Assembly (NCBI GenBank): GCA_012798025.1
Contig: JAAZNX010000008.1
Span: 1-25,692, forward strand
Direction of reading: 5' to 3'
Source: Methanothrix sp.
GTDB taxonomy: Archaea > Halobacteriota > Methanosarcinia > Methanotrichales > Methanotrichaceae
DNA: 25,692 nt
Shown here in pieces: positions 4,217 through 21,448 of the stretch. The position numbers and the translations under genes were made by a program. The notes below the pieces were generated by a model. It did no database searches. It saw nothing but the letters and a program-made list of their open reading frames with translations, and was not told the DNA's origin. Position 1 is the stretch's first letter. Every line of letters begins with the position of its first letter.

Positions 4217-5713
4217 TCAGGCTGTGACCTCTATCTCCAGCACGTCTGGGAAGACCTCAGAGTTTTCGCCGGTTGAAACCAGAATGCTCACCTTGTAGAT
4301 TCCAGGAACCACTCCTGCATTCCAGATTCCAACGTACTTTCCTTTGGAGGTGGAAAGCAGCGTCGTCCTGCCTGCCTCTGAGCCATCAGGACCGTTGATG
4401 ATGGCGGTGCAGCGCAGGGTCCCTTCACTTCCTGTGGTAGCATCAGAGGGCTTGCCTGCTGATCCGATCTGCACTACACCGCTGCTGCGGTCTATGCTGG
4501 CAAAGCCTTGCGGAGATCCAAATCCGCAGGTGACACAACCCTTTACCGTAAGCTTCATCTCTGAAGCAGCGGCCTGCTTCTCCTGAATGGATGCAGTGAT
4601 GGTCACAGCATTTCCTGATCGAACGGGATTGGGCCGAGCATCGATCTCTGCCAGCTCCAGGTTGAGGCTGGGCTGGTTTTCCAGCCAGTCTTTCCAGGTA
4701 TAGAGCCGGGCGTCGTAGCCGGATAAAGTCAGAGCAAACCATACCAGTGAAGCTTCTACGCCCACGTTGGTGTAGACCACCACAGGTCGGTCCTTATCGA
4801 GTCCCAGGAAGATCTGCTTCAGATCTTCTTCAGGCCTGATGCGTTCGTTCTCCACCACATCTTCGTAAGGAATGTTGATCGCTTCGGGAATAGATCCGAT
4901 GCCAAAGTCCCTGGCAGGTCTTGCATCCACTATTTGTGCTCCTCCGTTTAGGACGAAATCGTAGCTTGCCAGAAGATCAGACTTGAGCGTCGGGGTGTAA
5001 TTCGTCTGCTGACGGAGGGCAGGGGCGTCGCTTACATTGAGGCCGGCTGCAGCCCAATCGTCGATGCTGCCATCCAGAACTCGGACCTTCTCGTGGCCCA
5101 GGTACTTCAGCAGCCAGTAGGTGAAGACCGCTGGAGAGGGCCCGCCACCACAGGGAAGACATTCGCCAGCGATCACCACCGAGTCGTTGGCAGAAATTCC
5201 CGCATCCCCCAGAAGCTTGGCAAGCTCTGGAAGAGGCTTCAGGCTCCAGCCTGAGCCCATGAACTCCTCGTAGTTGAGGTTGACCGAGCCCTCGATGTAT
5301 TCGGTCGCATTGGGGCTGATGTCCAGAATAACATCGTTGGCAGTGACCCCCGACGGAGAGACCAACGCCTCGGCAAAGGCACCGGTTCGCGTCTTTGAAT
5401 GGTTGCCCGGAGCAGAATCATTTTTTGCAGGAACCTGCGCGGGTTCAGCTTTTTGAGTTTTTAGTATTGTCTCTTGCCTGTCAAGCTGAGCTTTTTGCTG
5501 CTGTTCCTGCTCGTATACTGCCTTTTTAGCAAGCCAGCCATCCAGATCGGTCCAATCAGGGCAGGTAGGGCAGAACTCGCCTGTTTCTGTACCTGCCAGG
5601 GCCGGCAGCGTTAAAGCCAGGCAAAGGACGAGTATCGAGGCCAAACCTGATGTGATGGCTATGGCTTTGCCATTTCCGATCTTTTTCATCAGGGATGTTT
5701 CCAAACGAGCCAT
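4217..5713 (-). CDS. Exported tandem rhodanese-domain protein with C-terminal beta-rich domain (rhodanese A)
   Basis: Predicted extracytoplasmic sulfurtransferase-like protein of 498 residues. The start is ATG 5713, with AGGAG eight bases before it. A GTG three codons upstream is less likely. Seen: a signal/anchor segment (about 17-40), CPTC at 48-51, a Q/K-rich linker, rhodanese domain 1 (about 120-230) and domain 2 (about 255-347), then about 140 residues of beta-rich sequence with GCVTCGFG. The rhodanese active-site loop of domain 1 reads GECLPCGGGPS, with Cys185 and Cys188, instead of the usual single Cys. In domain 2 the loop reads YTNVGVEAS, so the catalytic Cys is replaced by Thr. In classical two-domain rhodaneses the second domain is the active one, so the arrangement is reversed. 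Last intact gene of the ArsR-led operon, 11 bases after rhodanese B, its closest relative. Confidence 0.85.
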   Translation of the reverse strand: MARLETSLMKKIGNGKAIAITSGLASILVLCLALTLPALAGTETGEFCPTCPDWTDLDGWLAKKAVYEQEQQQKAQLDRQETILKTQKAEPAQVPAKNDSAPGNHSKTRTGAFAEALVSPSGVTANDVILDISPNATEYIEGSVNLNYEEFMGSGWSLKPLPELAKLLGDAGISANDSVVIAGECLPCGGGPSPAVFTYWLLKYLGHEKVRVLDGSIDDWAAAGLNVSDAPALRQQTNYTPTLKSDLLASYDFVLNGGAQIVDARPARDFGIGSIPEAINIPYEDVVENERIRPEEDLKQIFLGLDKDRPVVVYTNVGVEASLVWFALTLSGYDARLYTWKDWLENQPSLNLELAEIDARPNPVRSGNAVTITASIQEKQAAASEMKLTVKGCVTCGFGSPQGFASIDRSSGVVQIGSAGKPSDATTGSEGTLRCTAIINGPDGSEAGRTTLLSTSKGKYVGIWNAGVVPGIYKVSILVSTGENSEVFPDVLEIEVTA

Positions 5714-5724
5714 AACAATCACTC

Positions 5725-6780
5725 CTAAATATCGCTGGATTCTTGCTCAGTGAGCTGATTGGCCATCCAATCCTGGTAAGAGTAGAGCTTGGCATCATAG
5801 CCCATGATCTCCAGAGCAAGCCACATTACAGAACCCTTGAAGCCGGTGTTTGTAAAGGCCACAACAGGTTGCTCTTTGTTCAAAATGGAAAAGCGCTTCT
5901 CCAATTCATTCGCATTCCTTATCTTATCCCCGTCAAGTACGCTCTCATAAGGTATGCTGATAGCCCCTGGAATAGATCCCGAGCCATACTCCTGAACTGT
6001 CCTGGCATCAACAACTTGTGGTAGACCGCTCTTTACATAGTCATAGTTTCCGATAAACTGATCTGTGAATTGCGGTGTGTAATTAGCGGCCGGGCGAACG
6101 GCTGCACTTGATGATACTGGGAGGCCTCTGTCTTTCCAGTCCTGTACATATCCATTCAGGATCCTGACATTTTCATGTCCAAGCGATTTCATCATCCAAT
6201 AGACATAGGCCGAAGCCGATGGCCCTCCGCCGCAGGGCAGGCATTCTCCGTAGAGGACCAGGGAATCATCCTGAGTGATTCCTGCATTTCCAAGGATCTT
6301 TGCTATCTCCGAAACGGACTTGAGCGAATCGCCTTGCATGAATTCTTGATAAGGAATTGCCAGAGATCCAGAGATGTGCTCTTTGGCACTTTCGCTCACA
6401 TCCAATAAAATATCTGAGTTTGTGATCTCATCGATCTCAATCATGATCTCATGGAAGTTGTTGGCGCTCTGCGGAGCGTTCGTGTCAGCCTTCGGCTTTT
6501 CATCATCTTCCAGTACCTCTCTTGCCTGACTATCTTGGCTGCTGGAAGACATATTCCATCTCATCTCTCTCGACTTCTCCGGCCACTTGGCTGAGATTTG
6601 CTCCTGGCCTGCATTGGGTTTTCCAATCTCATCCAGCTTGGCCATTGGATCCCAGCCACCGTCGTCGCAGGCGCCTCCCAAGGAGGCACATTCGCCTCCG
6701 GCGTACGCGCTCTGCGATAGGGTTATTATGGCCAGCAAGGCCCAGAGGATCATGCCGATATTAGCTTTCAGAATATTCAT
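5725..6780 (-). CDS. Exported tandem rhodanese-domain protein (rhodanese B)
   Basis: Predicted secreted sulfurtransferase-like protein of 351 residues, start ATG 6780 with AGGA five bases upstream. Signal peptide about 1-27 (ending QSAYAGG), a low-complexity Cys/Gly and Ser/Asp-rich linker to about 110, rhodanese domain 1 (about 117-222), and domain 2 (about 245-340). Domain 1 has the loop LYGECLPCGGGPSAS with Cys180 and Cys183. Domain 2 has AFTNTGFKGSV, with Thr in place of Cys. The strong match to rhodanese A (same CLPCGGG loop, same YTPxF linker between domains) shows a tandem duplication. It lacks the extra C-terminal domain of A. The CxxC in the active loop could work as a dithiol or metal site as well as a persulfide carrier; that part is inferred. 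Confidence 0.85.
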   Translation of the reverse strand: MNILKANIGMILWALLAIITLSQSAYAGGECASLGGACDDGGWDPMAKLDEIGKPNAGQEQISAKWPEKSREMRWNMSSSSQDSQAREVLEDDEKPKADTNAPQSANNFHEIMIEIDEITNSDILLDVSESAKEHISGSLAIPYQEFMQGDSLKSVSEIAKILGNAGITQDDSLVLYGECLPCGGGPSASAYVYWMMKSLGHENVRILNGYVQDWKDRGLPVSSSAAVRPAANYTPQFTDQFIGNYDYVKSGLPQVVDARTVQEYGSGSIPGAISIPYESVLDGDKIRNANELEKRFSILNKEQPVVAFTNTGFKGSVMWLALEIMGYDAKLYSYQDWMANQLTEQESSDI

Positions 6781-6798: not shown

Positions 6799-7176
6799 TC
6801 ATGCTGCAAGCTCCTCTTTTACCTTCTCTACAACCTTGGCGCAGGCCTTTTCGTCATGAACAAGTTCGGGTGATTTTTCAATCCCAAGCTCAGTTACGAC
6901 TATCTGTATGGCAGGCTCGATCTCTGCATACTGCAGGGTTTTGGCTGCGCATTGAACCGGACAGCCGTCTATGGCGATCATGAGCCCGGCCTCTTGGGCC
7001 GCCTTTACCATTCCTGGGATGTGACCGCCCACTCCTGCCAGGCAGAAGAAACTGGCCACCTTCTCTTTGGCCAGCTCAATTGCCGCCTGATTTGCGATCT
7101 GTCCGACATTTGAGGCTCCAGAGCAGGCAACGACGCGCACATCTGAAGAGCCACATATACACTTCTTCTCATTCAT
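6799..7176 (-). CDS. DGC-domain putative zinc-binding protein
   Basis: Cytoplasmic 125-residue protein of the DGC family (PF08859-like), annotated as zinc-binding but of unproven function. Seen: CICGSSDVRVVACSGASNVG near 6-25, FFCLAGVGGH near 43-52, and the name-giving DGCPVQCA near 70-77. These are the conserved cysteine positions of the family. Start ATG 7176 has GGTGG seven bases upstream. It lies between the small thioredoxin (11 bases upstream) and rhodanese B. DGC proteins often sit next to thioredoxin-like and permease genes in anaerobes, so a role in metal, metalloid or thiol handling is likely but not shown. Confidence 0.85.
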   Translation of the reverse strand: MNEKKCICGSSDVRVVACSGASNVGQIANQAAIELAKEKVASFFCLAGVGGHIPGMVKAAQEAGLMIAIDGCPVQCAAKTLQYAEIEPAIQIVVTELGIEKSPELVHDEKACAKVVEKVKEELAA

Positions 7177-7187: not shown

Positions 7188-7424
7188 CTATTTCTTGAGC
7201 ATCCTCTTGATCTCTTCAACAGTTGCCGTTCTGCCCACGATCTTGGACTGTCCGTCGATGTAAAGAGCAGGGGTCATCATCACTCCCCTCTCCATGATCT
7301 CCTGGATGCTGTCCACCTTGATCACTTCTGCAGAAATTCCAGATTCTTCAACAGCCTTCTCAACATTCTTCATCAGGCTCTTGCACTTGGCACAGCCTGT
7401 TCCCAAGACCTCGATCTTCACCAT
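7188..7424 (-). CDS. Small thioredoxin-like protein (MTH895 / redox-active disulfide protein 2 type)
   Basis: Cytoplasmic thiol-disulfide carrier of about 78 residues. Seen: beta strand VKIEVLGTG, the redox pair CAKC, a helix SLMKNVEKAVEESG, then the cis-proline region MMTPALYIDGQ and a C-terminal helix VEEIKRMLKK. This is the TIGR00412-type thioredoxin fold, shorter than classical thioredoxin. Start ATG 7424 is preferred because GGGTG lies seven bases upstream; the GTG three codons earlier overlaps that site. It is 26 bases downstream of the thioredoxin-CcdA gene and 11 upstream of the DGC gene, so co-transcription is expected. A possible job is to accept or supply electrons for the CcdA protein or the DGC partner. 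Confidence 0.88.
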   Translation of the reverse strand: MVKIEVLGTGCAKCKSLMKNVEKAVEESGISAEVIKVDSIQEIMERGVMMTPALYIDGQSKIVGRTATVEEIKRMLKK

Positions 7425-7450
7425 TTCATTCACCCATTAGTCTCATATTT

Positions 7451-8575
7451 CTAAATCAGTTGCCAGTATATTAGTGGAGATAAAACAATCAATGTGAGCC
7501 CCGTTATCATCCGGATGGCCACTTTGTGGTTGTTGCGAAAATTATCTACATGCTCCGGGCTCATGCCAAGAGCCATTATCACTCCCAAAAGCAGCACTGG
7601 GAGCACTATGCCCAGGTTGTACATCATCAGATAAATCAAACCAGACGAGGCATATCCCTGGCTGGAGATGATGCCTATGATGGCGATATAGACCGCTCCC
7701 ACGCAGGGGGCCTTCACCAAGGAGAAGAGAGCTCCTAATAAGAAGTAAGAGCAGAGCCTCTTGCTGGCCAGTGCATCGTTCACATACTTAATGGCCCAGT
7801 CCGTGCGAAAGAGGGAATCCCTTCCGCCATTCAACCTTCTTGCATCTTCCATCTGCATCAGCCCCAAGAGCAGCAGAAGGGCTGCCAGAATCAGGCGGAA
7901 CATAGCTGCAGTAGACTTCTCCTGCAGGACATTAAACAGGCCAACTCCGAATATATAGTAGACCACGAATATGCCTAAGGAGAAGAATACAATCATGGTC
8001 AAGAGGTCCCTTCTGCGACCCGAGCTGGCAAGCACTGTGCTCGCCAGAAAGGCCAGTATGGCCAGAAGACATGGGTTGAAGCCCGCCAAAAGGCCTGCCA
8101 CAAAGACAGTTACTGCGGAAGACAGGTTCAAATTTTGTAGCGAATTGTCGTCATCCAAGATGCTATCTGATTCATCCTCGTTTTTGCCGCCGATATTCTG
8201 GCCATTCAAAGCGCCCGTGATGAGCATTTTCAGTTCGGTCTCATTCCCATCGTAGTCTTTGTAGCCGATAACCGAATTGCCGATAATTATGGACGGGACA
8301 TCCTTGGCTTTGTGCTCCTTTATGATCCTGTGTCCCTCTTCGCTGGAAAAGGTGACAGCCTCAACGGATGCGTTCTCGTAATCTGCCAGTATGTCCGTCA
8401 GCACTCTTTCTGCAGCTGCACACTTAGTACATCCTGGGGAGGTAATTATGGTGATATGAGAACCATCATCGGCTGAGACAGGCCATAAAACTATGACCAG
8501 TGCAACTGTCAGCAAAATTGCCATGATGCAATTTTGTATAGCCTCCATTCGACTTTTCCTGGATCGTTGTATCAT
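7451..8575 (-). CDS. Exported glutaredoxin/thioredoxin domain fused to CcdA-like electron carrier
   Basis: Membrane protein of 374 residues that probably moves reducing equivalents across the membrane, as DsbD/CcdA proteins do. Seen: signal/anchor helix (about 12-32), an external thioredoxin-type domain with SPGCTKCAAAE (Cys49, Cys52) and VPSIIIGNSVIGY, an acidic linker (130-148), then six hydrophobic segments. The two CcdA signature cysteines are in GLLAGFNPCLLA (Cys169) and LVKAPCVGAVY (Cys291). ATG 8575 is the longest start. ATG 8548 has AGGA nearby and would still keep the signal helix. Fusing the outer thioredoxin to the transmembrane part is a reduced version of the DsbD layout. In the operon it stands between the DNRLRE-like gene and the small thioredoxin, which could serve as its cytoplasmic donor. 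Confidence 0.88.
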   Translation of the reverse strand: MIQRSRKSRMEAIQNCIMAILLTVALVIVLWPVSADDGSHITIITSPGCTKCAAAERVLTDILADYENASVEAVTFSSEEGHRIIKEHKAKDVPSIIIGNSVIGYKDYDGNETELKMLITGALNGQNIGGKNEDESDSILDDDNSLQNLNLSSAVTVFVAGLLAGFNPCLLAILAFLASTVLASSGRRRDLLTMIVFFSLGIFVVYYIFGVGLFNVLQEKSTAAMFRLILAALLLLLGLMQMEDARRLNGGRDSLFRTDWAIKYVNDALASKRLCSYFLLGALFSLVKAPCVGAVYIAIIGIISSQGYASSGLIYLMMYNLGIVLPVLLLGVIMALGMSPEHVDNFRNNHKVAIRMITGLTLIVLSPLIYWQLI

Positions 8576-8659: not shown

Positions 8660-9223
8660 TCAAGATGCTTCATATTGCAGGGATGCTTTCTCCTCTGCCG
8701 AGCCCTCCATCGAAGCAAAGCTGATGGATGCATCGCCCTCGGCTATCAATACGACTGAAAAGGGACAGCCTTCGCTGCACTCCACAGCTGCCTTTTTCAC
8801 AAAATCCGTTGCATCCCAGGTCTGCCAGCCTGTCTCCTGAATGTCCAATGTTCCTAATGCCTCTGGATCATATTCAGGTTGATCTTCCCAGGTAATTGTA
8901 TCCATAGCAGAGTTATCATAAAGGTACATGCTCACTTTTCCAGGCCGCTTTATCTCTCTGACATACATCTTCAGGCTGGCAGAGCTGATCTGCTGGGGCA
9001 GTGTGCTCATGCCTGCAAAGGAGAGATATGCTATTTTCACAGGCTGCCCGCTTTGGGATGTAACCCATATCACGCCGTCCTCGCCAAAGCTTTGATCTGC
9101 GTTCTCGGCGTCGGTGTATGTATCCATCTGCAAAGCCGGTGAGATTTTCACGCCTACGGCACAACCCGCCAGCAAGCCGATACAGGCCAACACCATTAAG
9201 GCCTTCATGGAATAATTTCTCAT
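8660..9223 (-). CDS. Secreted DNRLRE-like (CBM96-type) protein
   Basis: Predicted extracellular protein of about 187 residues. ATG 9223 is chosen because AGGAG lies nine bases upstream; the TTG three codons earlier sits on that site. A lipoprotein-like leader ends LLAGCAVG. The remainder fits the DNRLRE/disaggregatase-related beta sandwich: DTYTDAENADQSFGEDG near the start, KIAYLSFAGMSTLPQQISSA (the segment in which such domains carry a strand of the form xAYLRFDLSxLP), then TITWEDQPEYDP and GWQTWDATDFVKKA. These domains occur on methanogen surface proteins and bind or decorate cell-surface polymers. Its place between the permease (22 bases upstream) and the CcdA fusion is unusual and suggests that the operon has a strong exported component. 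Confidence 0.7.
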   Translation of the reverse strand: MRNYSMKALMVLACIGLLAGCAVGVKISPALQMDTYTDAENADQSFGEDGVIWVTSQSGQPVKIAYLSFAGMSTLPQQISSASLKMYVREIKRPGKVSMYLYDNSAMDTITWEDQPEYDPEALGTLDIQETGWQTWDATDFVKKAAVECSEGCPFSVVLIAEGDASISFASMEGSAEEKASLQYEAS

Positions 9224-9245
9224 TTCTTCCAACTCCTTCTATTGA

Positions 9246-10325
9246 TTATGGAAAGATGGCTCCGTACAGCATACCCACTAAGGTTGATATGATCACTACC
9301 AGACTGATGTAAACGCTGGCCTTTTTCGCTCCAATTACCCTCCAGATAACTACCATATTGGGAAGGCTCAGAGACGGCCCCGCCAGCAGGAGAGCCAGAG
9401 CCGGTCCGGATGCCGTCACTCCTGCGCTATACCCAAAGAGCGTACCGACAATTGGAACCTCCAGTAATGTGGGCATGTAGAGCAAGGCACCAATAACAGA
9501 GGCTAATAAGCAGGCAAGAGGGCTGCTCGTGCCGAAGATGGTGCGGACCCACTCAACAGGCAGAAAGTAGCCTATCACGCCAGTGATGAACGTTCCGACC
9601 ACAAGCAGTGGAAAGATCCTCTTTGCAAGCCACCATGTCTCGCCCAGGAATGCCTCTCTCTCTTCTGGCAGATAATAGGCCTTCATCATAAAGGCGGCCA
9701 TGAGTGCCAGGGCTACAACGATTGCAGCCTTTGGCATCATTTCAAAGAGGCTTGAGGTAGCAACCAGAAGTATGGACACCAGGACTGCCATAAAGAGGCC
9801 GGTCACATATCCCGGGCGGGCTCTTTCAATGGGTTCTGGTTCGGCCTGAGAAGCTGCAGTTTTGCATCTTTCATCAGACCCTTGGAATATGGCCGTCATG
9901 ATCAGGCCGATGACGACAGCCATAGTGACCGCCGCTACTGCTCTGGCTACCCCAATGCCCAGGCCCAAGACTCTAGCCGTGAGAACGATGGCCATGAGAT
10001 TGATGGCTGGCCCAGAGAAGAGGAAAGCAGTTGCCGGACCGATTCCTGCACCCCTCTTTTCAATCCCGGCGAACATGGGAAGGATGGTGCAGCTGCATAC
10101 GGCCAGTATGGTGCCCGAAGTGGCTGCAAAACTGTAGCACAGCCATTTGGGCGCGTCAGCCCCGAAGTACTTCATAACTGTCTCTTTCCTAAGCAGTGCC
10201 GCTATGGCTCCGGCTATGAAAAATGCGGGCACGAGGCATGTCAAAACGTGCGCTGAGAGATATTCCATCAATGTTGTAAGTCCGGCCTGCAAGGCAGCAA
10301 TAGCAATTAATGTGTAGTCGGCCAC
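9246..10325 (-). CDS. PF03773 permease (ArsP-like family)
   Basis: Integral membrane permease of 359 residues with about eight to ten hydrophobic segments. The family signature is clear near residues 71-110: GTILAVCSCTILPMFAGI, then GPATAFLFSGPAINL; a second half-repeat carries LLYMPTLLEVPIVGTLFGYS. Family members include ArsP, known to export trivalent methylated and aromatic arsenicals, and related carriers linked to copper or zinc. The CSC in the motif is a natural thiol site for a soft metalloid. Start GTG 10325 has AGGAG eight bases before it and lies four bases after the ArsR stop, so translation is probably coupled. Substrate choice (organoarsenical or metal) is inferred from the ArsR partner and the nearby Acr3 cluster. 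Confidence 0.85.
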   Translation of the reverse strand: MADYTLIAIAALQAGLTTLMEYLSAHVLTCLVPAFFIAGAIAALLRKETVMKYFGADAPKWLCYSFAATSGTILAVCSCTILPMFAGIEKRGAGIGPATAFLFSGPAINLMAIVLTARVLGLGIGVARAVAAVTMAVVIGLIMTAIFQGSDERCKTAASQAEPEPIERARPGYVTGLFMAVLVSILLVATSSLFEMMPKAAIVVALALMAAFMMKAYYLPEEREAFLGETWWLAKRIFPLLVVGTFITGVIGYFLPVEWVRTIFGTSSPLACLLASVIGALLYMPTLLEVPIVGTLFGYSAGVTASGPALALLLAGPSLSLPNMVVIWRVIGAKKASVYISLVVIISTLVGMLYGAIFP

Positions 10326-10329: not shown

Positions 10330-10671
10330 TTAGCTCCTGATTATCTGTTCCTCGATGCTCTTTTTGGCATCGATGAGGTGGGATATCTGCTTTAATGCCA
10401 GTTCGTCCACCGCCTTGATCACCTGAAGCACTTGAGGGTCTTTTATGCTGTAGACGGTCCTTTTTCCATCTATCCTTCTATCCAGTATTCCTGCCTGATA
10501 GAGAACATTGAGATGTTTGGATATGGATGATTGAGATCTCCGAAAGGCAGGCATTATTTCACAGACGCATCTCTCATCGCCGGAAAGGTACTCGATGAGC
10601 TCAAGGCGAACGGGGTCTGCCAGAGCGCTGAAGACCTTCAATCGCAGGTCTGAAACGGTATTTTGTGCCAT
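10330..10671 (-). CDS. ArsR/SmtB-family metalloregulator (first)
   Basis: Repressor of 113 residues with one winged helix. Seen: LRLKVFSALADPVRLELIEYL, the metal-binding segment ERCVCEIM at the start of helix 3, the recognition helix RRSQSSISKHLNVLYQAG, and the wing DRRIDGKRTVYSI. The CVC motif matches the As(III)/Sb(III) site of classical ArsR (ELCVCDL). It heads the minus-strand operon and overlaps none of its neighbours. The divergent spacer 10672-10781 has a TATA box flanked by repeats, which suggests autoregulation and possibly control of the small divergent gene at 10782. Inducer identity is inferred from the CVC site. Confidence 0.92.
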   Translation of the reverse strand: MAQNTVSDLRLKVFSALADPVRLELIEYLSGDERCVCEIMPAFRRSQSSISKHLNVLYQAGILDRRIDGKRTVYSIKDPQVLQVIKAVDELALKQISHLIDAKKSIEEQIIRS

Positions 10672-10682
10672 GCCGAAGATAG

Positions 10683-10714
10683 AAAGTTACATCAAATATA
10701 TAAACTTTACATCA
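10683..10714 (-). promoter_or_regulatory. TATA box with flanking repeats in the ArsR divergent spacer
   Basis: AAATATATAAA (10694-10704) is a strong archaeal TATA sequence; it lies about 23-33 nt ahead of the ArsR ATG at 10671, giving a leaderless or near-leaderless transcript. It is framed by AAAGTT (10683-10688) and AACTTT (10703-10708), an inverted pair. There is also a direct repeat TTACATCA at 10687-10694 and 10707-10714, exactly 20 bp apart (two helical turns). These repeats are candidate ArsR operator elements. Confidence 0.5.
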
Positions 10715-10781
10715 CATCGCGATAAGTAGATCTGAAATGGAACAGGTACATTGAAATCACCATGCATACCTATTACTGATA

Positions 10782-12517: not shown

Positions 12518-12546
12518 GACACCGAATCCTTTATCCGAGGTCTGCT

Positions 12547-13386: not shown

Positions 13387-13406
13387 ATATCAAAATAGTT
13401 TGATAT
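13382..13406 (+). promoter_or_regulatory. TATA box overlapped by a perfect 20-bp palindrome, candidate ArsR operator
   Basis: TTTATATAT (13382-13390) is a TATA-type element. It runs into the dyad ATATCAAA (13387-13394), ATAG, TTTGATAT (13399-13406), with all eight bases of each arm paired. The first gene begins at 13426, so the site overlaps the TATA box and the region just behind it. A repressor bound here would block TBP or polymerase. The second gene of the transcript encodes an ArsR protein, so autoregulation is the simplest reading. Confidence 0.6.
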
Positions 13407-13585: not shown

Positions 13586-13996
13586 ATGGCATGTGTTACA
13601 AAAGAGGCTATCGGCAGGATGACACGGCTCATCGGCGATGCAGACAAAGCCCAATGCAAAGTCAACAAGCTCCGCTCCATAACAGCCAAGCTAAACGAGA
13701 AAGATATCGATGCAGAGGCTGAGATATTCAAGGCAATGGCCGATCCCTACCGCCTCAAGATCCTCATGCTCTTGCGGGAAGGCGAGTTATGCGTCTGTGA
13801 GATCATGATCGCCATCGATAGGCCGCAATCAACGACCTCCTATCAGCTATCCATCCTCAGGGATGCAGGGCTCATCAGGGAGCGCAAGGATGGAAGATGG
13901 TCCAGATACCGGCTTTCTGAAGGAGCTGTTATAGAGATGCTCAATTTGGTGAAGCTGATGAAGGATAATCAAAATGGAGGAGGCGACAGTGGATGA
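13586..13996 (+). CDS. ArsR/SmtB-family metalloregulator (second), Acr3 operon
   Basis: Repressor of 136 residues, start ATG 13586 after GAGAGAGGA. A 40-residue N-terminal helix rich in Lys and Asp precedes the winged helix: AEIFKAMADPYRLKILMLL, the metal site ELCVCEIM, recognition helix RPQSTTSYQLSILRDAG, and wing RERKDGRWSRYRL. The ELCVCE segment is almost identical to the As(III) site of plasmid ArsR proteins (ELCVCDL). Its stop overlaps the start of the third rhodanese by four bases (ATGA). It probably controls the palindrome at 13387-13406 and thereby the downstream series including acr3. N-terminal Cys3 and Cys29 (approximate) could add to metal binding. Confidence 0.92.
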   Translation: MACVTKEAIGRMTRLIGDADKAQCKVNKLRSITAKLNEKDIDAEAEIFKAMADPYRLKILMLLREGELCVCEIMIAIDRPQSTTSYQLSILRDAGLIRERKDGRWSRYRLSEGAVIEMLNLVKLMKDNQNGGGDSG

Positions 13997-15048
13997 TCAC
14001 GACCAACATAAATCAGATGGGCTCAGCCAAGATTCCAGACAAAAGGTGGTTTTGCGCCCTGGCAGTTTCATTGATCTCCTCGGTTGCCTTCACTACAATA
14101 GTAGACGCTGGCTGCAGTTGTAGTGCTGTAGGTGATTGGGAGACCAAGGCTGCAGAATTTCTTAAGATCGATGATACAAGTGTAACGCCATCGAGTTATG
14201 GCGATGCCCAAACCACCACAACGACAAACCAACCAAAGACAGTTTCGAGAAGCGAATCATTCCCAAATGGAGAGATTCTCAAGCCCATGAAGGGCGTCTC
14301 CAGCTCAGATGTTGTATTGGATGTGTCCAACGGCGAGAACTATGCCAAGTCTCACATCAAGAACGCTATTCACATTCCCTCACGGGATTTTCTTGATAGC
14401 GATGGCAAATTGAAATCGAGCCAGGAGCTCTCCATCGTGCTGGGAGATGCGGGAATTTCCAGGGACGATCCCTTGGTCGTTTATGGAACCTATGAGAGTT
14501 CAGGTGAGGCCGAGTTTGCCTTCTTGGTGCTGCGCTACCTAGGACAAAAGGAGGTAAAGCTCCTGGACGGGAGCCTGGCAGACTGGCAGGCTGCAGGCTT
14601 GCCAGTTGAATCATCAGAGAACAAAAAGCCCAGAACGCATTACATTCCAGAAGTGCAGTCCGAAGTTATTGCAAAATACGATTACGTGAAGTCCAACCAG
14701 GCGCAGATCGTGGACGTTCGGCCCTTTGTGGAGTTTGGCAAGGGCCGCATACCTGGTTCAGTTGCACTCGATCCAGCAACCATCGTCAAAGGGGAGAAGA
14801 TCAAAGGTGTAGAGGACCTCAGCGTCGTTTTCGACAGACTGAGCAAGGACAGGCCCATTGTGGTATATTCAAGCGACTACAGCCGATCATCTCTGGTCTG
14901 GTATGCCCTGCAGCTCATGGGATACAAGGCCAGCATCTACACATGGGAGGACTGGAAAGAGCACGATACCACAGACTCGCAGACCGCCGCTACAACATCC
15001 GTGGGAAGTCCTGCTGGCTCGAAGTACATAAAGCTTGGCAGTAAGTGA
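13993..15048 (+). CDS. Exported tandem rhodanese-domain protein with both active-site cysteines lost (rhodanese C)
   Basis: Third member of the exported rhodanese set, 351 residues, start ATG 13993 with GGAGGAGG upstream and a four-base overlap with arsR. Signal segment about 18-40, CSC at 41-43, a Thr/Ser-rich linker, rhodanese domain 1 (about 100-205) and domain 2 (about 225-325). The active loops read VYGTYESSGEAE (domain 1) and VYSSDYSRSSL (domain 2); neither has a cysteine, while the surrounding folds are well kept, including DVRPFVEFGKGRIPG and YTWEDWKEH. It therefore cannot form a persulfide in the usual way, and a binding or scaffold role is more likely. Cys41 and Cys43 at the mature N-terminus could hold a ligand or form a lipid or disulfide anchor. 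Context with acr3 suggests a role in arsenic or sulfur binding outside the cell. Confidence 0.85.
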   Translation: MITTNINQMGSAKIPDKRWFCALAVSLISSVAFTTIVDAGCSCSAVGDWETKAAEFLKIDDTSVTPSSYGDAQTTTTTNQPKTVSRSESFPNGEILKPMKGVSSSDVVLDVSNGENYAKSHIKNAIHIPSRDFLDSDGKLKSSQELSIVLGDAGISRDDPLVVYGTYESSGEAEFAFLVLRYLGQKEVKLLDGSLADWQAAGLPVESSENKKPRTHYIPEVQSEVIAKYDYVKSNQAQIVDVRPFVEFGKGRIPGSVALDPATIVKGEKIKGVEDLSVVFDRLSKDRPIVVYSSDYSRSSLVWYALQLMGYKASIYTWEDWKEHDTTDSQTAATTSVGSPAGSKYIKLGSK

Positions 15049-15083: not shown

Positions 15084-16160
15084 ATGTCGAACGGAGTCGG
15101 AAAAGGCTTGGATTTTCTATCCCGTTACCTTACCGTCTGGATATTCGTGGCCATGTTCCTGGGAATCGGCATAGGCTATTTTGCGCCTGGTGTCACCCAG
15201 TTCATACTAAGTCTGCAGGTGGGCACGACATCCATACCCATCGCCATTGGTCTTATCCTGATGATGTACCCGCCGCTGGCCAAGGTGAAGTATGAAGAAT
15301 TGGGCAAGGTCTTCAAGGATAAGAAGGTCCTTGTCCTCTCCCTGCTACAGAACTGGATCGTGGGTCCTATTCTGATGTTTGCTCTGGCTGTGCTATTCTT
15401 ACGAGACTATCCTCACCTAATGTACGGAATAATCCTCATAGGCATCGCAAGATGCATCGCCATGGTCATAGTCTGGAATGAGCTGGCCCATGGCTGTACT
15501 GAATACTGCGCCGCCCTGGTGGGATTGAATTCCATCTTTCAGGTCTTGTTCTACTCTATCTATGCCTACGTCTTCATCACAGTGCTTCCGGCAGCTCTTG
15601 GCATAGCTGAGGGAACTCTGGTCAATGTAACAATCGCCCAGATTGCAGAAAGCGTATTCATCTATCTGGGGATACCGTTTCTGGCAGGAATAATCACCAG
15701 ATTCAGTCTGATGAAGGCCAAAGGAAGAAGCTGGTATGAGAGGAAATTCATACCCAAGATCTCGCCCATAACACTGATTGCATTGCTTTTCACCATCATT
15801 GTGATGTTCTCTTTAAAGGGGGACTATATAGTACAGCTTCCCTTAGATGTAGTAAGAGTGGCCATACCCCTGGCCTTATACTTCCTGCTCATGTTCTTTG
15901 TCAGCTTCTTCATGGCATACAAGCTGGGCGTGAACTATGAGAATACCGCAGCCCTGTCATTCACGGCTGCCAGCAACAACTTTGAGCTGGCAATTGCGGT
16001 AGCCGTGGGTGTTTTTGGTATCGCTTCTCAGGAAGCCTTTGCAGCAGTGATTGGGCCGCTCATCGAAGTTCCAGTACTGATCGCCCTTGTAAACGTGTCC
16101 TTGAAGCTGAGAGAGAAATTTTACCCTGATCTGCCAGCAGAGGTCTCCTGCGAGACCTGA
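15084..16160 (+). CDS. acr3: Acr3-family arsenite efflux transporter
   Basis: Ten-helix secondary carrier of 358 residues that exports As(III), and possibly Sb(III), from the cytoplasm. Seen: [19 protein letters not shown] at the N-terminus, [11 protein letters not shown], the essential transmembrane-4 cysteine in [16 protein letters not shown] (Cys124), [12 protein letters not shown], and near the C-terminus [19 protein letters not shown] followed by [15 protein letters not shown], where the family's conserved Glu lies. Length and motifs are those of a full Acr3. Start ATG 15084 has a purine-rich site (GGTGGAAGTG) upstream. It lies 35 bases after rhodanese C and 19 before the winged-helix/Fe-S gene. 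With the ArsR gene two positions upstream, arsenite-induced expression is expected. Sometimes named arsB in annotations. Confidence 0.95.
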
Positions 16161-16980: not shown

Positions 16981-16992
16981 AGGCGTGGCACT

Positions 16993-17358
16993 TTGACGAC
17001 ACTGACCATCATCCTCACCGACGGGCCTTACATCTCTGAGTACGCAGAGATGGCGTATAAAATTGCGAAAGCTGCCCTGGTGCATCACAAGGTAAATATC
17101 TTTCTCTACCTCGACGCAGTGCACATACCAAAAGGAAGCCAAAATCCTGTGCTCTTCGTCAATATCGGACGGCTTTTCGAGGAGCTGGCATCCAATGGAG
17201 CAACTATCAGGGCCTGTCCAAGATGTGCCGCAGCACGTGGCTATCAGGCTACAGACGGTGTATGCCAAGAATATCTTCCGGGAATAAGGATTACCAGCCT
17301 GTATGATCTGGCTGAGATGTTGAAGGAAAGCGATAAAGTGATCGCTTTATCAAAATGA
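16993..17358 (+). CDS. dsrE: DsrE/TusD-family sulfur-relay protein
   Basis: Cytoplasmic sulfur carrier subunit of 121 residues. Seen: N-terminal TTLTIILTDGPYISEYAEMA, VNIFLYLDAVHIPK, and RACPRCAAARGY, holding Cys75 and Cys78. In E. coli TusD the reactive cysteine is at 78, so the position is conserved. The start is TTG 16993: there is no ATG before the conserved first strand, and AGGCGTGG is close upstream. It overlaps dsrF by four bases (ATGA), so the two are translationally coupled. In Tus/Dsr systems the three subunits form a hetero-hexamer that passes persulfide sulfur. No DsrC, TusA or sulfite reductase is visible nearby, so here the set probably serves a different sulfur-transfer job. 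Confidence 0.88.
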   Translation: MTTLTIILTDGPYISEYAEMAYKIAKAALVHHKVNIFLYLDAVHIPKGSQNPVLFVNIGRLFEELASNGATIRACPRCAAARGYQATDGVCQEYLPGIRITSLYDLAEMLKESDKVIALSK

Positions 17359-17696
17359 GATCTGTCTTTTACCTGCTGGATGTTGCACCCTACGGGAGCG
17401 AGAAGGCTTATGGGCTGCTCAATGCGGCAGCTGTGAGCATCAAGATGAACGTCATAGTAGGCCTCTATGCAGATGGCGTGTACCTGGCGCTGGCAGGACA
17501 AGATAGCAGAGCCCTTGGGGTCCCCAACCTTTCAGACATAATCTATGCCTATCCCGAGATGAAGGTCATTGCCCATGAGCCCTCGCTTGCAAAGAGAGGT
17601 CTCTTTAGCCAGAGCCTTATCGAAAGGGTTGAGCTGGTCGATGATGAGAAGTTCATAGAGGAGACTGTAGCCTCCGATTCAGTGATCGCACTGTGA
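17355..17696 (+). CDS. dsrF: DsrF/TusC-family sulfur-relay subunit
   Basis: Second subunit of the DsrE/F/H-type complex, 113 residues, start ATG 17355 within the dsrE stop. Seen: SVFYLLDVAPYGSEKAYGLL, MNVIVGLYADGVYLALAGQD, IIYAYPEMKVIAH and a C-terminal VDDEKFIEETVASDSVIAL. It has no cysteine at all, which fits a structural role; in DsrF/TusC the catalytic sulfur carrier is the DsrE/TusD partner. Length is close to that of E. coli TusC (119). Four bases separate it from the TTG start of the next frame and 13 from the preferred ATG. Confidence 0.85.
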   Translation: MRSVFYLLDVAPYGSEKAYGLLNAAAVSIKMNVIVGLYADGVYLALAGQDSRALGVPNLSDIIYAYPEMKVIAHEPSLAKRGLFSQSLIERVELVDDEKFIEETVASDSVIAL

Positions 17697-17709
17697 GGAT
17701 TTGGTTTCG

Positions 17710-18042
17710 ATGGAGCACGATAGACAATTGCATTCAGACGGCAAAGAGCCCAAGGTGGACATTTTCCTGCTGACCAAGCCTCCTTTCAGCGAACGTGCCA
17801 GGTTTTGCCTGCGCTTAATTGAGCAATCAGAACATGCCGTCCTTTATCTAGCAGGAGATGGAGTTTATGTGCTGCTCGAAGAAGCCCTCGAAAACCTGTC
17901 ACTGGCAAGGATTGTGGTCTGCAGAGAGGATCTGGAGGCAAGGGGCGTGCAGGCTGGAGATAAAACGGTGGTGCTGGTTGATTTTTACGAGCGCCTGGTC
18001 GAGGATGCGATGAATAAGGAGAGCAAGCTCTACGCATTTTGA
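17710..18042 (+). CDS. dsrH: DsrH/TusB-family sulfur-relay subunit
   Basis: Third subunit of the complex, 110 residues from ATG 17710. An in-frame TTG three codons earlier lies too near its GAGG ribosome site. Seen: VDIFLLTKPPFSERARFCLRL, HAVLYLAGDGVYVLLEEALE, ARIVVCREDLEARGV and VVLVDFYERLVEDAM. This is slightly longer than E. coli TusB (95) with an extra charged N-terminus (HDRQLHSDGKEP). It closes the E-F-H order of canonical dsrEFH/tusDCB operons, which is the best evidence for its name. Two cysteines (about 33 and 71) are present. The transcript probably ends or is re-initiated after it, since a new TATA-like box is seen at 18093. Confidence 0.85.
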   Translation: MEHDRQLHSDGKEPKVDIFLLTKPPFSERARFCLRLIEQSEHAVLYLAGDGVYVLLEEALENLSLARIVVCREDLEARGVQAGDKTVVLVDFYERLVEDAMNKESKLYAF

Positions 18043-18092
18043 ACTTTGGTTATGAACTTGGATCTCTTTCGTGCGTTCAGATTCCTCTGAGA

Positions 18093-18101: not shown

Positions 18102-18136
18102 TCTGTTGCCCGCATATCTTACAAAGCTGGTGTCTT

Positions 18137-18415
18137 ATGAACTTTGAACATGTTGCGGGAAAGGAAAAAGGCAAGATCACGTTATATGCCTTGAGTACTT
18201 GCACCTGGTGCAAGAAGACAAAGGAGCTTCTGACAGCGCTAGGCGTTTCTTTCGACTACATTTATGTTGATCTTCTGAAGGGAGAGGACAGGTCCACGGC
18301 GATAGCGCAGGTCAAGCGTTACAATCCAAGTCTCTCATTTCCGACGCTCGTCATTGGAGATAAGTGCATTGTGGGCTTCAGGGAGAGGGAGATCCAGGAG
18401 GCACTCGGCCGATGA
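18137..18415 (+). CDS. Glutaredoxin-like thiol-disulfide protein
   Basis: Cytoplasmic 92-residue glutaredoxin. Seen: [19 protein letters not shown] (Cys22, Cys25), [14 protein letters not shown], cis-proline [14 protein letters not shown] and the C-terminal helix REREIQEAL. The CTWC pair is of the NrdH/glutaredoxin type. Start ATG 18137 is chosen because GGTG lies five bases before it and the protein begins directly with the fold; a GTG at 18071 would add 22 residues with no match. The stop overlaps the start of the FTR gene (ATGA), which makes this glutaredoxin a likely natural partner that FTR reduces. Confidence 0.88.
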
Positions 18416-18936
18416 ACGAGAATTTCAATGAACCTACCGACAGCGAGGTGGATAAGCTCTACGCTCGCCTGGATAGAGAGGCAAAACAAGGCGGATACTT
18501 CCTCAACCCAGACGCCGAGTTCGTCAAGGGCCTGGTCAGAGGCCTGCTCATAAACGAGAGGCGTTACGGCTACCGTGCCTGTCCCTGTCGGCTGGCTGCA
18601 GGTAACAAGCAGCAGGACCTCGACATCATCTGTCCCTGCTACTACAGAGACGCAGATATTTCGGAGTTTGGGGCCTGCTACTGTGCGCTTTATGTTTCTG
18701 CAGCAGTCCTGAAAGGCGAAAAAGAGCTGAGCTGCATTCCTGAGAGAAGGCAGCCAAAAGAAACAGGAATGGCGACGCCGGGAGCCTCTGGTGCAAGCAC
18801 TTGTGCCACGCCCGTGAAGCTCTCAGTGCCGGTGTGGAGGTGCCTTGTGTGCGGCTACCTCTGCGGCCGAGAAGGGCCACCTGAGGTCTGTCCCATCTGC
18901 AAGGCAGGCAAGGAGCGGTTTGAGCGGTTCATTTAG
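18412..18936 (+). CDS. ftrB: Ferredoxin:thioredoxin reductase catalytic subunit with C-terminal rubredoxin domain
   Basis: Enzyme of 174 residues that uses ferredoxin electrons and a [4Fe-4S] cluster next to a disulfide to reduce thioredoxin or glutaredoxin. FTR cysteines are in [11 protein letters not shown] (57, 59), IICPCYYRD (74, 76) and [10 protein letters not shown] (89, 91). The last pair is CYC rather than the CHC of plant enzymes, so the catalytic-site His is replaced by Tyr. A Thr/Ser/Pro-rich link (about 115-138) leads to a rubredoxin-like knuckle domain with [11 protein letters not shown] (144, 147) and EVCPICKAG (160, 163), the form also seen at the end of rubrerythrin. The fusion would supply a one-electron iron site close to the Fe-S cluster. 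Translationally coupled to the glutaredoxin; 40 bases before copA. Confidence 0.92.
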
Positions 18937-18976
18937 CTTCGAAAAGAAGCACATCACTTTGACTCGCCAATAGCAT

Positions 18977-21448
18977 ATGTCCGATACCAAGAGAGCCGAA
19001 TTAAAGGTCATTGGAATGGCCTGCGCTGCTTGCAGCGCAGCCATCGAGAAGGCCCTCATGGGCCTAGAGGGGGTTGTGCAGGCCGAGGTAAATCTTGGCA
19101 CAGAGATGGCAACAGTTGAATACGATCCAGAGAAGCTCAAGCTTGCAGACCTCGAGATGGCGATCAGTAATGCTGGCTATGGCGTTGTTGACGAAAAGGT
19201 CGTGCTGAAAATCGGCGGCATGGCCTGTGCCATGTGCGTCAACGCTCTTGAGACCGGACTTAAAAAACTGGACGGCGTCGTGGATGCGCGCGTGAACCTG
19301 GCGGCTGAGAAGGCTTACGTCAGTTACAATCCTAGAATGGTAAGCCTGGAAGATCTCAAAGCTGCCGTGGCCGATACTGGCTATCAGTTCCTGGGGCTGG
19401 CTGGCGAGGAGGCATCTGCAGATCAGGAAAAAGCATTGCTGGCAAAGGATCTGGCAGACAAGAAACGGCGGATCATAATCGGATTTGCAGCAAGCCTCAT
19501 CTTAATGATTTTGATGTACCTGCCGGTTCACAGTATCGTACCCATGACCACCTTCATGGCCGCCCCCAATTTCATGAATCTGTTCATGCTGGTGCTGTCC
19601 GCTCCAGTCTTCATCTACGTCAGCCTTCCAATATTCCGCGCAGCGTTCCGGGCCCTGCGCAACAGGAGCCTGGACATGGATGTGATGTACGCCATGGGCA
19701 TCGGCGTGGCCTATGGTTCCAGCATACTTGGCACCTTCGGGATAGTGCTCACTTTGGATTTCACGTTCTACGAGACTTCTATCATGCTTGCCTCTTTTCT
19801 GACGCTTGGGCGTTACCTGGAGACGAAGGCCAAAGGCAGCACCTCTGAAGCCATTCGGAAGCTTGTGGGTCTGCAACCCAAGAAGGCAACTGTCCTGAGG
19901 GATGGGTTCGAGGTTGAGGTGGCTGTGGAGGAGGTTGTGGTCGGTGACCAGATCCAGGTCAAGCCCGGAGAGAAGATTCCAGTGGATGGACTCGTACTGT
20001 ACGGTCAGAGCTATGTAGACGAATCGATGATCACCGGCGAGCCTGTGCCAGCCCTAAAAGTTGTTGGCCAAAACGTGGTGGGTGGGACGATCAACAAGAA
20101 CGGAGTACTCAGATTTCGGGCCACAAAGGTTGGCCGCGAGACCATTCTGGCGCAGATCATCTCTCTCGTTGAGGAGGCTCAAGGGTCAAGGCCGCCCATT
20201 CAGAGGATTGCTGATCGTGCGGTGAGCTATTTCATTCCCGCCATTCTATCAATCGCAGCTCTCGCTTTCGTCTACTGGTACTTCCTCGCCCGCGAGACGC
20301 TGCTCTTCTCGCTGACAGCTCTCATATCAGTATTGGTAGTTGCATGCCCATGTGCCCTTGGCCTGGCAACGCCCACAGCAGTCACCGTGGGCGTTGGCAG
20401 GGGTGCGGAGCTGGGAATTCTAATCAAGAGCGGCGAGGCTCTAGAAGTCTCCGAGAAGCTCAATTCAGTGGCCTTCGACAAGACAGGCACACTGACTGTA
20501 GGGCGTCCCGATGTCACAGACCTGGCGAGCTTTGGCATAGATGAAATGGATCTTTTAAGGCTGGCTGCAAATGCGGAAAAAGGCTCCGAGCATCCTCTGG
20601 CTGAGGCAGTGGTCAGGAAGGCCCAGGCCGAGGGGATCAGCCTCACAGGGGCTTCAGACTTCGAGACCCTGCCAGGAAAGGGCGTGGTAGCAAAGGTTGA
20701 TGCAAGGTGTGTGGTGGTCGGGAACAGGTTGCTCTTCCTTGAAACTGGCATTGAAACGCCAGATGAGCTGCTGACGAAGGCATCCGACTTCGAGAAACAG
20801 GGAAAGACGGCCATTCTGATTGCCCTGGACGGCAAAGGCTGTGGCGTCTTGGGGATCGCCGATAAGCTGAAAGATTCGGCCTCAAGTGCAGTGGCCGAGC
20901 TGAAGAAGATGGGTCTTGGGGTGATTATGATCACAGGAGATAATCTTCGCAGTGCATCCGCTGTGGCAAATCAGCTCGGCATTGAGCAGGTCCTCTCCGA
21001 GGTTCTGCCTGAAGAGAAGTCCAAAGAGATAAAGAGGCTGCAGCAAGGAGGACGCAAGGTGGCCTTTGTTGGCGATGGCATAAACGATGCACCGGCTCTG
21101 GCGCAGGCCGATGTCGGCATCGCCATCGGCAGTGGAACAGATGTTGCTATCGAGGCGGGAGAGATCGTTTTGATGAAGGACGATCTGCTGGATGCCGTGG
21201 CCGCCATTCAGCTCAGCCGCAAGGTTATTTCGAGGATCAAGCTGAACATCTTCTGGGCCTTCGCCTACAATGCTCTGCTGGTTCCAGTTGCTGCAGGAGC
21301 GCTCTTTCCATCTTATGGCATTACCTTTCGACCTGAGTTTGCGGGCCTGGCCATGGCCTTGAGCTCAGTGACCGTCGTCTCACTCTCACTACTGCTCAAA
21401 AGATATATTCCGCCGGCAAAAGAAATGCTATTGCCTTCTGCCTTCTAA
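18977..21448 (+). CDS. copA: CopA-type copper-translocating P1B-ATPase
   Basis: Membrane ATPase of 823 residues that exports Cu(I), likely also Ag(I). Seen in order: two heavy-metal-binding domains with [10 protein letters not shown] (Cys16, 19) and [10 protein letters not shown] (Cys84, 87); paired helices from about 160; actuator loop [13 protein letters not shown]; the transmembrane metal site [13 protein letters not shown] (CPC at 457-459); phosphorylation site FDKTGTLT (Asp501); SEHPLAEAV; and [20 protein letters not shown] near 699-718. These are the complete signature motifs of a Cu(I) P1B-1 pump. Start ATG 18977 has no ribosome site; leaderless or coupled translation is possible. The gene's 3' end overlaps the convergent small gene at 21428 by 21 bases. 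It is the last of the plus-strand series and extends it from arsenic to copper. Confidence 0.95.

Follow-up and report, generated by a model that had tools for sequence, protein, structure and literature searches.

A conserved arsenic-linked regulon combining export, sulfur-transfer and thiol-redox genes in Methanothrix

Introduction

The stretch of DNA considered here (the window) is a whole contig of 25,692 nucleotides (G000:C97 in our genome set) from a 1.74-Mb draft genome of Methanothrix sp. with a completeness of 87.65%, and the named homologues of its proteins come chiefly from Methanothrix/Methanosaeta. It carries an island of arsenic, sulfur and thiol-redox genes which, judging from the spacing of its open reading frames (ORFs), consists of two operons with ArsR regulators and a divergent thioredoxin/CcdA unit. 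We conclude that the island is a real and conserved arsenic-linked regulon, that is, a known kind of system in a fresh arrangement. In soils and sediments that lack oxygen and are often sulfidic, Methanothrix is a major source of methane.

Gene content and layout

Operon A, on the minus strand (10671 to 4217), encodes ArsR1, a PF03773 permease, an exported CBM96 protein, a glutaredoxin-CcdA fusion (Grx-CcdA), a small ArsE-type thioredoxin, a DGC-domain protein and the exported rhodanese-like proteins RhoB and RhoA, in this order. The middle unit, also on the minus strand (13089 to 11123), contains the gene of a secreted thioredoxin followed by that of TlpA-CcdA. Operon B, on the plus strand (13426 to 21448), encodes a Cys-rich protein of 47 amino acids (aa), ArsR2, RhoC, Acr3, a helix-turn-helix (HTH) protein with an iron-sulfur domain (HTH/Fe-S), DsrE, DsrF, DsrH, a glutaredoxin (Grx), FTR-rubredoxin and CopA (Table 1). 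Gene identities derive from Pfam and NCBIfam profile matches, and that of the secreted thioredoxin from its CDYC motif and a weak match. With these profiles and the cysteine motifs, all the proteins that a first-pass annotation of this DNA had listed are found where it placed them, and the gene spacing bears out the three tight transcription units it described; the HTH/Fe-S protein, the CBM96 protein and the 47-aa gene were missing from its list.

Table 1. Coordinates of the genes and promoter elements of the island in the window.
Feature	Position	Strand	Basis
RhoA: exported tandem rhodanese fold with C-terminal domain	4217..5722	-	PF00581 x2, alignments, tree
RhoB: exported tandem rhodanese fold	5725..6780	-	PF00581 x2, PDB alignment, model, Foldseek
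DGC-domain protein	6799..7176	-	PF08859 114 bits
MTH895/ArsE-type small thioredoxin (GCAKC)	7188..7433	-	TIGR00412 103 bits, cut-off 62; PDB 1ilo
Grx-CcdA: exported glutaredoxin-like domain fused to CcdA (DsbD_TM)	7451..8575	-	PF02683
Exported CBM96 protein	8660..9232	-	PF24517 95.7 bits
PF03773 permease	9246..10325	-	PF03773 238 bits
ArsR1 (CVC, no further Cys)	10330..10671	-	NF033788 82.7 bits, cut-off 55
ArsR1 promoter: TATA-like box and diverged op1	10672..10725	-	coordinates hand-counted
TlpA-CcdA: exported TlpA-like (AhpC-TSA) domain fused to CcdA	11123..12559	-	PF00578, PF02683
Exported thioredoxin-like protein (CDYC)	12547..13089	-	motif and weak match
Putative operator op2, ATATCAAA-atag-TTTGATAT	13387..13406	+	inverted-repeat search, 0.01 expected
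47-aa Cys-rich protein, first gene of operon B	13426..13569	+	motif scan, pN/pS, homologue search
ArsR2 (CVC)	13586..13996	+	NF033788 93.7 bits
RhoC: exported tandem rhodanese fold, AGCSC Cys pair past signal peptide	13993..15048	+	PF00581 x2
Acr3, predicted arsenite exporter	15084..16160	+	TIGR00832 449.8 bits, cut-off 282.8
HTH/Fe-S: winged HTH, TBP-like domain, [4Fe-4S] domain PF04060	16174..16980	+	PF04060 46 bits, model
DsrE (CPRC)	16993..17358	+	PF02635
DsrF (no Cys)	17355..17696	+	PF02635
DsrH	17701..18042	+	PF04077
Methanoredoxin-like glutaredoxin	18137..18415	+	PF00462; PDB 5cax, 1e-34
FTR beta with rubredoxin, ferredoxin:disulfide reductase type	18412..18936	+	PF02943, PF21349; PDB 4tpu, 8.7e-69
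CopA-type P-type ATPase, two HMA domains	18977..21448	+	PF00403 x2, PF00122

The cysteines of the regulators and exporters are well kept. The CVC pair is present in every aligned sequence of ArsR1 (31/31) and ArsR2 (14/14), and Acr3, which passes the TIGR00832 equivalog cut-off, has Cys124, presumably the conserved transport Cys, in 19/19. The permease carries a CSC motif in 46/46 aligned sequences; its membership of the Sao or SO_0444 systems was rejected, as it scores below the cut-offs of both models (93.9 bits for SaoE, with a cut-off of 325). Among its partners, the Cys pair of the ArsE-type thioredoxin is found in 41/41 sequences, and six Cys of the DGC protein are kept throughout an alignment of 29-30 sequences. 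A search for DGC homologues on plasmids gave 24 records, none spanning 80% of the query; the one region read, from a Shewanella plasmid, combines a DGC gene with an MFS transporter and no annotated arsenic gene, and DGC alone is therefore not an arsenic marker.

The 47-aa protein at the head of operon B consists of a CxxC...CxxC arrangement followed by a C-terminal CSCC. When 144 stretches were scanned for this motif, 25 matches were obtained (17 once duplicate records were dropped). In 20 of the 25 the next labelled gene is ArsR2, 7-28 nt on, and the other five list RhoC next (419-441 nt), because the ArsR2 ORF call starts upstream there and overlaps the match; no match was found at places other than such ArsR2/RhoC heads. 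By our own count, the gene accompanies 13 of the 14 aligned ArsR2 sequences, the exception being that of genome G031. The proportion of nonsynonymous differences (pN) is lower than that of synonymous ones (pS) in all 105 pairs of 15 sequences (means of 0.21 and 0.67), and by this measure the gene is under purifying selection. Three other homologues were found in the protein database, one of them named McsA by its source, while neither Pfam nor a PDB search gave a significant match.

The HTH/Fe-S-DsrEFH cassette and the tail of operon B

The HTH and TBP portions of the HTH/Fe-S protein match their Pfam families under the respective cut-offs, and five of its Cys are invariant in 40/40 copies. 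A Foldseek search with its structural model (pLDDT 80, pTM 0.55) retrieved ArsR-family winged helices and archaeal TBP, none of them at an E value of 0.001 or better. Source records call the protein either an "ArsR family metal-binding transcriptional regulator" or a CODH/ACS gamma subunit, and the latter label is, in our view, wrong. At E 1e-40 or better, it is present in 20 of 294 genomes of the phylum, all of them in families f1 and f3 of our set. The genome_contigs collection contains 65 loci (29 of which repeat contigs of our first set of relatives), with titles from Methanosarcinales or unresolved archaea, apart from one metagenome-assembled genome (MAG) of Methanosuratincola. The contig of this MAG (L189) bears a Methanothrix-like ArsR2-RhoC-Acr3-HTH/Fe-S-DsrEFH operon, with an HTH/Fe-S protein 76% identical, that would result from either transfer or a binning error.

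Both DsrE and DsrH keep their cysteines, in the CPRC motif (28/28 aligned sequences) and at Cys36 (29/29), respectively, which we take to be the positions of the known active ones. No TusA or DsrC was recognised among the identified genes of the window, the rest of the genome not having been searched for them. Farther downstream, the ORFs of the glutaredoxin and FTR-rubredoxin open at 18071 and 18364, and starts at 18137 and 18412 were judged likelier by eye. Genes for Grx, FTR and CopA were found near HTH/Fe-S in only 3 of 30 f1 copies (this genome and two close relatives). This tail consequently looks like a recent addition, and its three genes were dropped as candidates for the core of the island.

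Conservation of the neighbourhoods

By the criterion that the first-pass annotation itself had set, its proposal would be refuted if these genes were scattered in related genomes and never together. In the comparison made here, neighbourhoods extend over 8 kb or up to the end of the stretch, and gene labels, as in the promoter and site counts below, name the window protein that phmmer matched best and do not assign a family. For the permease, 35 of the 37 f1 copies listed with E below 1e-100 were examined, and ArsR1 was found near 32, the ArsE-type thioredoxin near 27, DGC near 20, RhoA near 19, RhoB near 15, Grx-CcdA near 14 and CBM96 near 11. Near 11 copies from outside f1, the thioredoxin occurs 11 times, DGC eight times and a rhodanese never.

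The second conserved group surrounds HTH/Fe-S. Near its 30 f1 copies there are DsrE (26), DsrF (25), DsrH (26), an ArsR2-type gene (24; an ORF whose best match in the window is ArsR2), Acr3 (18), RhoC (13), the secreted thioredoxin (11) and TlpA-CcdA (10). As a control, the ABC permease genes that flank the island in the window were found near three of the 30. Outside f1 (10 copies, 6 genomes), DsrE, DsrF and DsrH are near eight copies each and Acr3 near one. Additionally, in 43 of the 57 genome_contigs loci with room downstream, the 2.5 kb after HTH/Fe-S contain the starts of all three dsr genes. Since draft genomes and short contigs were used, all these counts are lower bounds. The HTH/Fe-S-DsrEFH cassette thus recurs in relatives from both Methanothrix and Methanosarcina, and parts of the island occur together in many genomes instead of being dispersed.

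Promoter palindromes

Two different palindromes mark the promoters of operons A and B; duplicate records were removed before sites were counted. The first, op1, reads ATCGTCTTATGGCGATA-N-GTTTATAT and lies directly 5' of ArsR1 (these promoters were aligned with an anchor wide enough for all 32 copies, of which a narrower one had missed nine). In 2.03 Mb, a looser pattern gave 24 matches, or 23 without duplicates, of which 22 stand before ArsR1 and the other before a permease, compared with 0-2 matches in each of five shuffles. Genome-wide, all eight sites, in 7 of 8 genomes, precede an ArsR1-permease operon, and the reversed control gave none.

In the window, the second palindrome, op2 (ATATCRAAATNNNTKGATAT), is an inverted repeat with two perfect 8-bp arms; it lies 19 bp ahead of the 47-aa gene and overlaps the TATA-like box of this operon at the 3' end of the box. 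A looser pattern was matched 29 times (20 without duplicates); 17 of the 20 matches are before an ArsR2-type gene and three have no labelled gene on that strand. In Methanosarcinaceae, ATATCAA-N6-TTGATA(T), with the same arms and the same six-base spacer as op2 in the window, is found ahead of HTH/Fe-S at 20 of 29 promoters (with spacers of 4-8 and duplicates dropped; 22 of 31 before dropping). When 38 stretches from this family were scanned, all 44 distinct sites with a spacer of 5-6 had a labelled gene no more than 400 bp away (HTH/Fe-S 24, ArsR2-type 9, PF03773 9, Acr3 1, DGC 1), a zone that makes up 18.7% of the bases scanned; 43 of these sites match ATATCAA-N6-TTGATA to the letter. No simple probability can be attached to this figure because the sites are related by descent, although the genes concerned belong to separate operons. 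It follows that the DsrEFH cassette and PF03773 genes share the palindrome of the ArsR2 promoter in a second family. As op1 differs from op2, operons A and B are probably switched separately. Taken with the co-location counts, the placement of these sites leads us to reject a chance clustering of the island genes.

In the promoter of the secreted thioredoxin (13196-13230), TTCGAC direct repeats stand on either side of a conserved TATA-like box and are a possible site of a third regulator, judging from their arrangement. A single copy is left in several relatives. The repeats were not retained as a third operator, as Methanosarcina-type HTH/Fe-S promoters show TTCGAA look-alikes in four cases, one of them a duplicate record.

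Exported rhodanese-like proteins and CcdA fusions

RhoA, RhoB and RhoC are tandem thiosulfate-sulfurtransferase-like proteins by both sequence and fold. The model of RhoB (pLDDT 77, with most of the first 106 residues unreliable) retrieves thiosulfate sulfurtransferases with Foldseek, reaching E 1.4e-16 to 1uar. The canonical C-domain Cys, however, is present in none of the 87 rhodanese-like sequences aligned (ORFs under 60 bits were left out), most of which have Thr or Ser in its place; RhoA reads YTNVG and RhoB FTNTG. Both have instead a CxxC in a loop of the N-domain (GECLPCGGG), and the corresponding GxCxxCG, a five-residue loop insertion, occurs in 69 of 71 RhoA/RhoB-labelled sequences; RhoA has CPTC and CVTC in addition. 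No loop Cys is found in the 16 RhoC-labelled sequences, in which a Cys pair lies right behind the signal peptide (12/13 and 13/13). In a tree built without repeated sequences and without rhodaneses of up to 260 aa (240 aa if added from the ArsM-search loci), the permease-linked RhoA form a clade with a support of 0.99, other RhoA one of 0.96 with one copy outside, most of the RhoB not linked to the permease one of 0.99, and RhoC one of 1.00, with one RhoC-labelled copy outside.

A related pair exists at another locus (L172), together with NosD, a subtilase, CBM96 and Grx-CcdA and with no arsenic gene seen, and in the genome of the window itself a rhodanese homologue accompanies a subtilase (L116). 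Families were tested at these two loci, which L109, L166 and L173 resemble in gene order. The recurrence of the pair at L172 and L116 suggests that the permease-linked pair is a duplicate of an envelope module specific to the family, and the rhodanese-NosD/subtilase module may serve the cell envelope. We suggest that the database labels sulfurtransferase and CODH/ACS gamma subunit are misleading for the proteins of the island that bear them. In the available passages of PMC10470525, a rhodanese gene of M. thermoacetophila appears merely as a target of quantitative PCR.

Each CcdA fusion combines, as in a CcdA/DsbD relay, a DsbD_TM part that has two Cys in the membrane with a CxxC on the exported side; topology and export were assigned by eye. 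The four redox Cys of TlpA-CcdA are kept in 15/15 aligned sequences, and Grx-CcdA keeps its CxxC and both CcdA Cys in 17/17 (13/13 for the second Cys of the CxxC). The CDYC cysteines of the secreted thioredoxin are likewise found in 17/17; this protein has no Pfam match at 0.001, its weak match being to Glutaredoxin (E 0.061).

Arsenic genes elsewhere in the genome

The absence of ArsC, ArsA and ArsM, to which the first-pass annotation had drawn attention, holds for the window but not for the genome. ArsM is encoded on contig C219 (356 bits, cut-off 263), an ArsC-type protein of the low-molecular-weight phosphatase family on C143 (69 bits; the family also holds phosphatases), and the one ArsA-family ATPase, which we take to be possibly Get3-like, on C206 (222 bits). 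For the neighbourhoods of ArsM, this protein and ArsC were added to the window proteins as phmmer references. Among the matches listed, a rhodanese-like protein lies within 2 kb of at least 6 of 19 close ArsM copies, and the two of these six that were read are both RhoC-type without loop Cys. At L274 and L277, ArsM adjoins an exported rhodanese fold with no loop Cys and two Cys past the signal peptide. A further module, observed in G012, G004 and G015, combines an ArsR2-type gene, a shorter PF03773-like permease and ArsM, and in G012 and G004 also ArsC. Between two ars modules of G004, a ferredoxin-like ORF (L255:2576-2938, by eye) ends in a GCCDGGCCS tail.

Other features of the window

Outside the island, an exported substrate-binding-like protein (924-2183, minus strand) carries a FepB label given without a family search and, by eye, a dockerin-like N-terminal repeat, and a short truncated ORF (24702-24998, plus strand) resembles, also by eye, the start of an IS66-type transposase. 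Known families of structured RNA gave no match at gathering thresholds. A defence system was considered and rejected, a weak Csa3 HTH match being the sole result for the five proteins tried.

Interpretation

The recurrence of the parts in relatives and the promoter palindromes support the proposal of an arsenic, thiol-redox and sulfur island under two ArsR regulators. We regard it as probable, with a fair margin of doubt, that the island works as a regulon for metalloid efflux (arsenic being the most likely metalloid), equipped with cytoplasmic sulfur and thiol repair and with CcdA-driven extracellular thiols. For ligands, induction, the pairing of operators and proteins, the substrate of the PF03773 permease and the chemistry after export, we infer the following scheme. 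A thiol-binding metalloid, most likely As(III), would fill the CVC site of ArsR2 and derepress operon B, and Acr3 would then export As(III). Operon A would be a second, separately switched exporter unit, whose plausible cargo is an arsenical outside the range of Acr3; methylated As(III), which the ArsM of this genome could make, is a candidate. In the cytoplasm, thiol targets that the metalloid has poisoned might again receive sulfur through DsrEFH, acting under the HTH/Fe-S protein. Electrons would be passed outward by the two CcdA fusions to exported CxxC proteins (the thioredoxin, RhoA and RhoB), which could keep surface thiols reduced and perhaps bind the exported metalloid.

Several observations weigh against this metalloid-efflux reading. 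The permease is a member of PF03773, the family of the ArsP-type organoarsenical exporters, and belongs to no NCBIfam equivalog, SaoE and SO_0444 being the sole models that match it, both below their cut-offs. Two-Cys ArsR proteins can also respond to other metals or to persulfide. The rhodaneses are partners of the permease in only part of f1 (RhoA 19/35, RhoB 15/35) and in none of the 11 cases outside it, and Acr3 is near one of ten Methanosarcinaceae HTH/Fe-S loci; the cassette may therefore answer another ligand in that family. As for the palindromes, the consensus op1 was not found in the window or its genome, whose own clade has a diverged version, and 8 of 14 ArsR2 stretches in the first set of relatives have op2 in its exact form. 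In the scan of Methanosarcinaceae, 16 of the 44 sites owe their label to matches below 60 bits (ArsR2-, PF03773-, Acr3- or DGC-like), and with a spacer of 4-8, 45 of 47 sites are by a labelled gene and two elsewhere. Ten genomes contain 22 distinct op2-type sites (none in the reversed control), of which 12 are at promoters of the system, three near it (in G004) and seven elsewhere, and G055 has no site; no arsenic gene was seen, with translations judged by eye, at three of the places not accounted for by the system (L241, L245 and L255).

An alternative is a response to reactive sulfur: persulfide or polysulfide would be sensed by the ArsR proteins, sulfane sulfur would be processed by DsrEFH, DGC and FTR, and export would have a secondary part. 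The three rhodanese folds, FTR, glutaredoxin and DsrEFH, whose Cys is conserved, all speak for such a role, as do the Methanosarcinaceae cassettes, mostly without Acr3, and the folds matched by the winged HTH of HTH/Fe-S, which include SqrR/HlyU-type ones (E above 0.001). Yet operon B contains a true Acr3, ArsM adjoins RhoC-type proteins in two relatives, and the rhodaneses lack the canonical Cys. Furthermore, the sensor cysteines of SqrR/BigR differ from CVC, and the BigR model scores the two ArsR proteins at 34.4 and 42.5 bits, below its cut-off of 155. We judge this alternative unlikely.

More doubtful is an extracellular desulfuration of thioarsenates in which the exported rhodaneses would do the work and CcdA would drive the reduction, as the first-pass annotation had envisaged. 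Arsenic-sulfur chemistry is to be expected in sulfidic habitats, and the exported rhodanese folds, with their CxxC in RhoA and RhoB, do adjoin CcdA fusions in arsenic loci. The absence of the canonical Cys from all 87 sequences, however, and of an N-loop Cys from every RhoC-labelled one, weakens the case for extracellular sulfur stripping, and the homologous pair at L172 is associated with NosD and a subtilase and with no arsenic gene seen. Of the thiolated or methylated arsenic that had been proposed as a substrate, the methylated form gains some ground (ArsM in the genome and rhodaneses near at least six of 19 ArsM copies), and the desulfuration is not supported. A role in resistance to copper or to soft metals in general, with CopA as the chief exporter, could be argued from the place of CopA at the end of operon B and from the NosD gene beside the homologous rhodanese pair. 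It is very improbable, since Acr3 is not known to carry Cu and CopA is near HTH/Fe-S in just three of 30 f1 copies, so that the Cu(I) role suggested earlier would be peripheral.

Beyond the metalloid-efflux reading, a broader and clearly more speculative one, which we hold to be possible and rather doubtful as a whole, would see here a metalloid-sulfur cassette of Methanosarcinales. In it, the ArsR-like, TBP-like, [4Fe-4S] protein would sense As(III), or the damage that it causes to Fe-S clusters and thiols, and direct the sulfane sulfur of DsrEFH either to arsenic itself or to thiols and Fe-S sites that have been poisoned, the cassette being switched by a palindrome common to ArsR and PF03773 export genes. 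Methanotrichaceae would have extended it outside the cell, where a rhodanese fold that was once a sulfurtransferase might now be a CxxC redox protein or metalloid binder, and the tiny Cys-rich protein would act as a metalloid chaperone.

An arsenic-linked regulon defined by its cis sites and neighbours joins export genes, a cytoplasmic sulfur relay and CcdA-driven surface thiols. Two of its components stand out, the HTH/Fe-S protein and a family of exported rhodaneses that lack the classical Cys. The regulon also supplies concrete putative operators that can be tested in the genetically tractable Methanosarcina.

Comparison with known systems

Among the open-licence PMC papers that our searches listed, we recognised no description of this combination of parts, and each part has known counterparts. 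Bacterial and archaeal operons with ArsR, a PF03773 permease and an ArsE-type thioredoxin are the closest to operon A; for instance, on a plasmid of Leptolinea (Chloroflexota), a regulator, a "redox-active disulfide protein 2" (the name of TIGR00412) and a permease 43% identical stand side by side. To these, the island adds DGC, CBM96, the Grx-CcdA fusion and two exported rhodanese folds. Operon B, for its part, shares ArsR and Acr3, with its Cys124, with Acr3 efflux operons, but adds the 47-aa Cys protein, RhoC, HTH/Fe-S and DsrEFH, and an ArsC-type gene is elsewhere in the genome.

The 47-aa protein resembles McsA, the CxxC metal-binding activator of a heat-shock operon of Firmicutes, in its CxxC...CxxC. 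It differs in its length, its extra CSCC, its place at the head of an ars operon and its lack of a Pfam match, and the architecture of McsA is not found in it. The rhodanese-like proteins are alike in fold to thiosulfate sulfurtransferases, but they are exported, have lost the catalytic Cys of the C-domain and bear either a CxxC in the N-loop (RhoA and RhoB) or no Cys there (RhoC).

The closest solved structures to Grx and FTR are 5cax and 4tpu (named Glutaredoxin and Rubredoxin in the PDB), which we take to be the methanoredoxin and ferredoxin:disulfide reductase (FDR) proteins of Methanosarcina. Both names, methanoredoxin and FDR, occur in passages of PMC7278568. What sets the island apart is that Grx and FTR stand next to each other in the tail of an ars operon, an arrangement observed here and in two close genomes.

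Finally, the three adjacent subunits of DsrEFH are as in the DsrEFH/TusBCD relay, but they are tied here to the HTH/Fe-S protein and to an ArsR-type putative operator. One outside hint of a link between DsrEFH and arsenic comes from Thioalkalivibrio, in which, according to the passages available from PMC6620896, DsrE/F-like genes change under arsenite in a role that is unclear, the inactivation of Cys by As(III) being one possibility.

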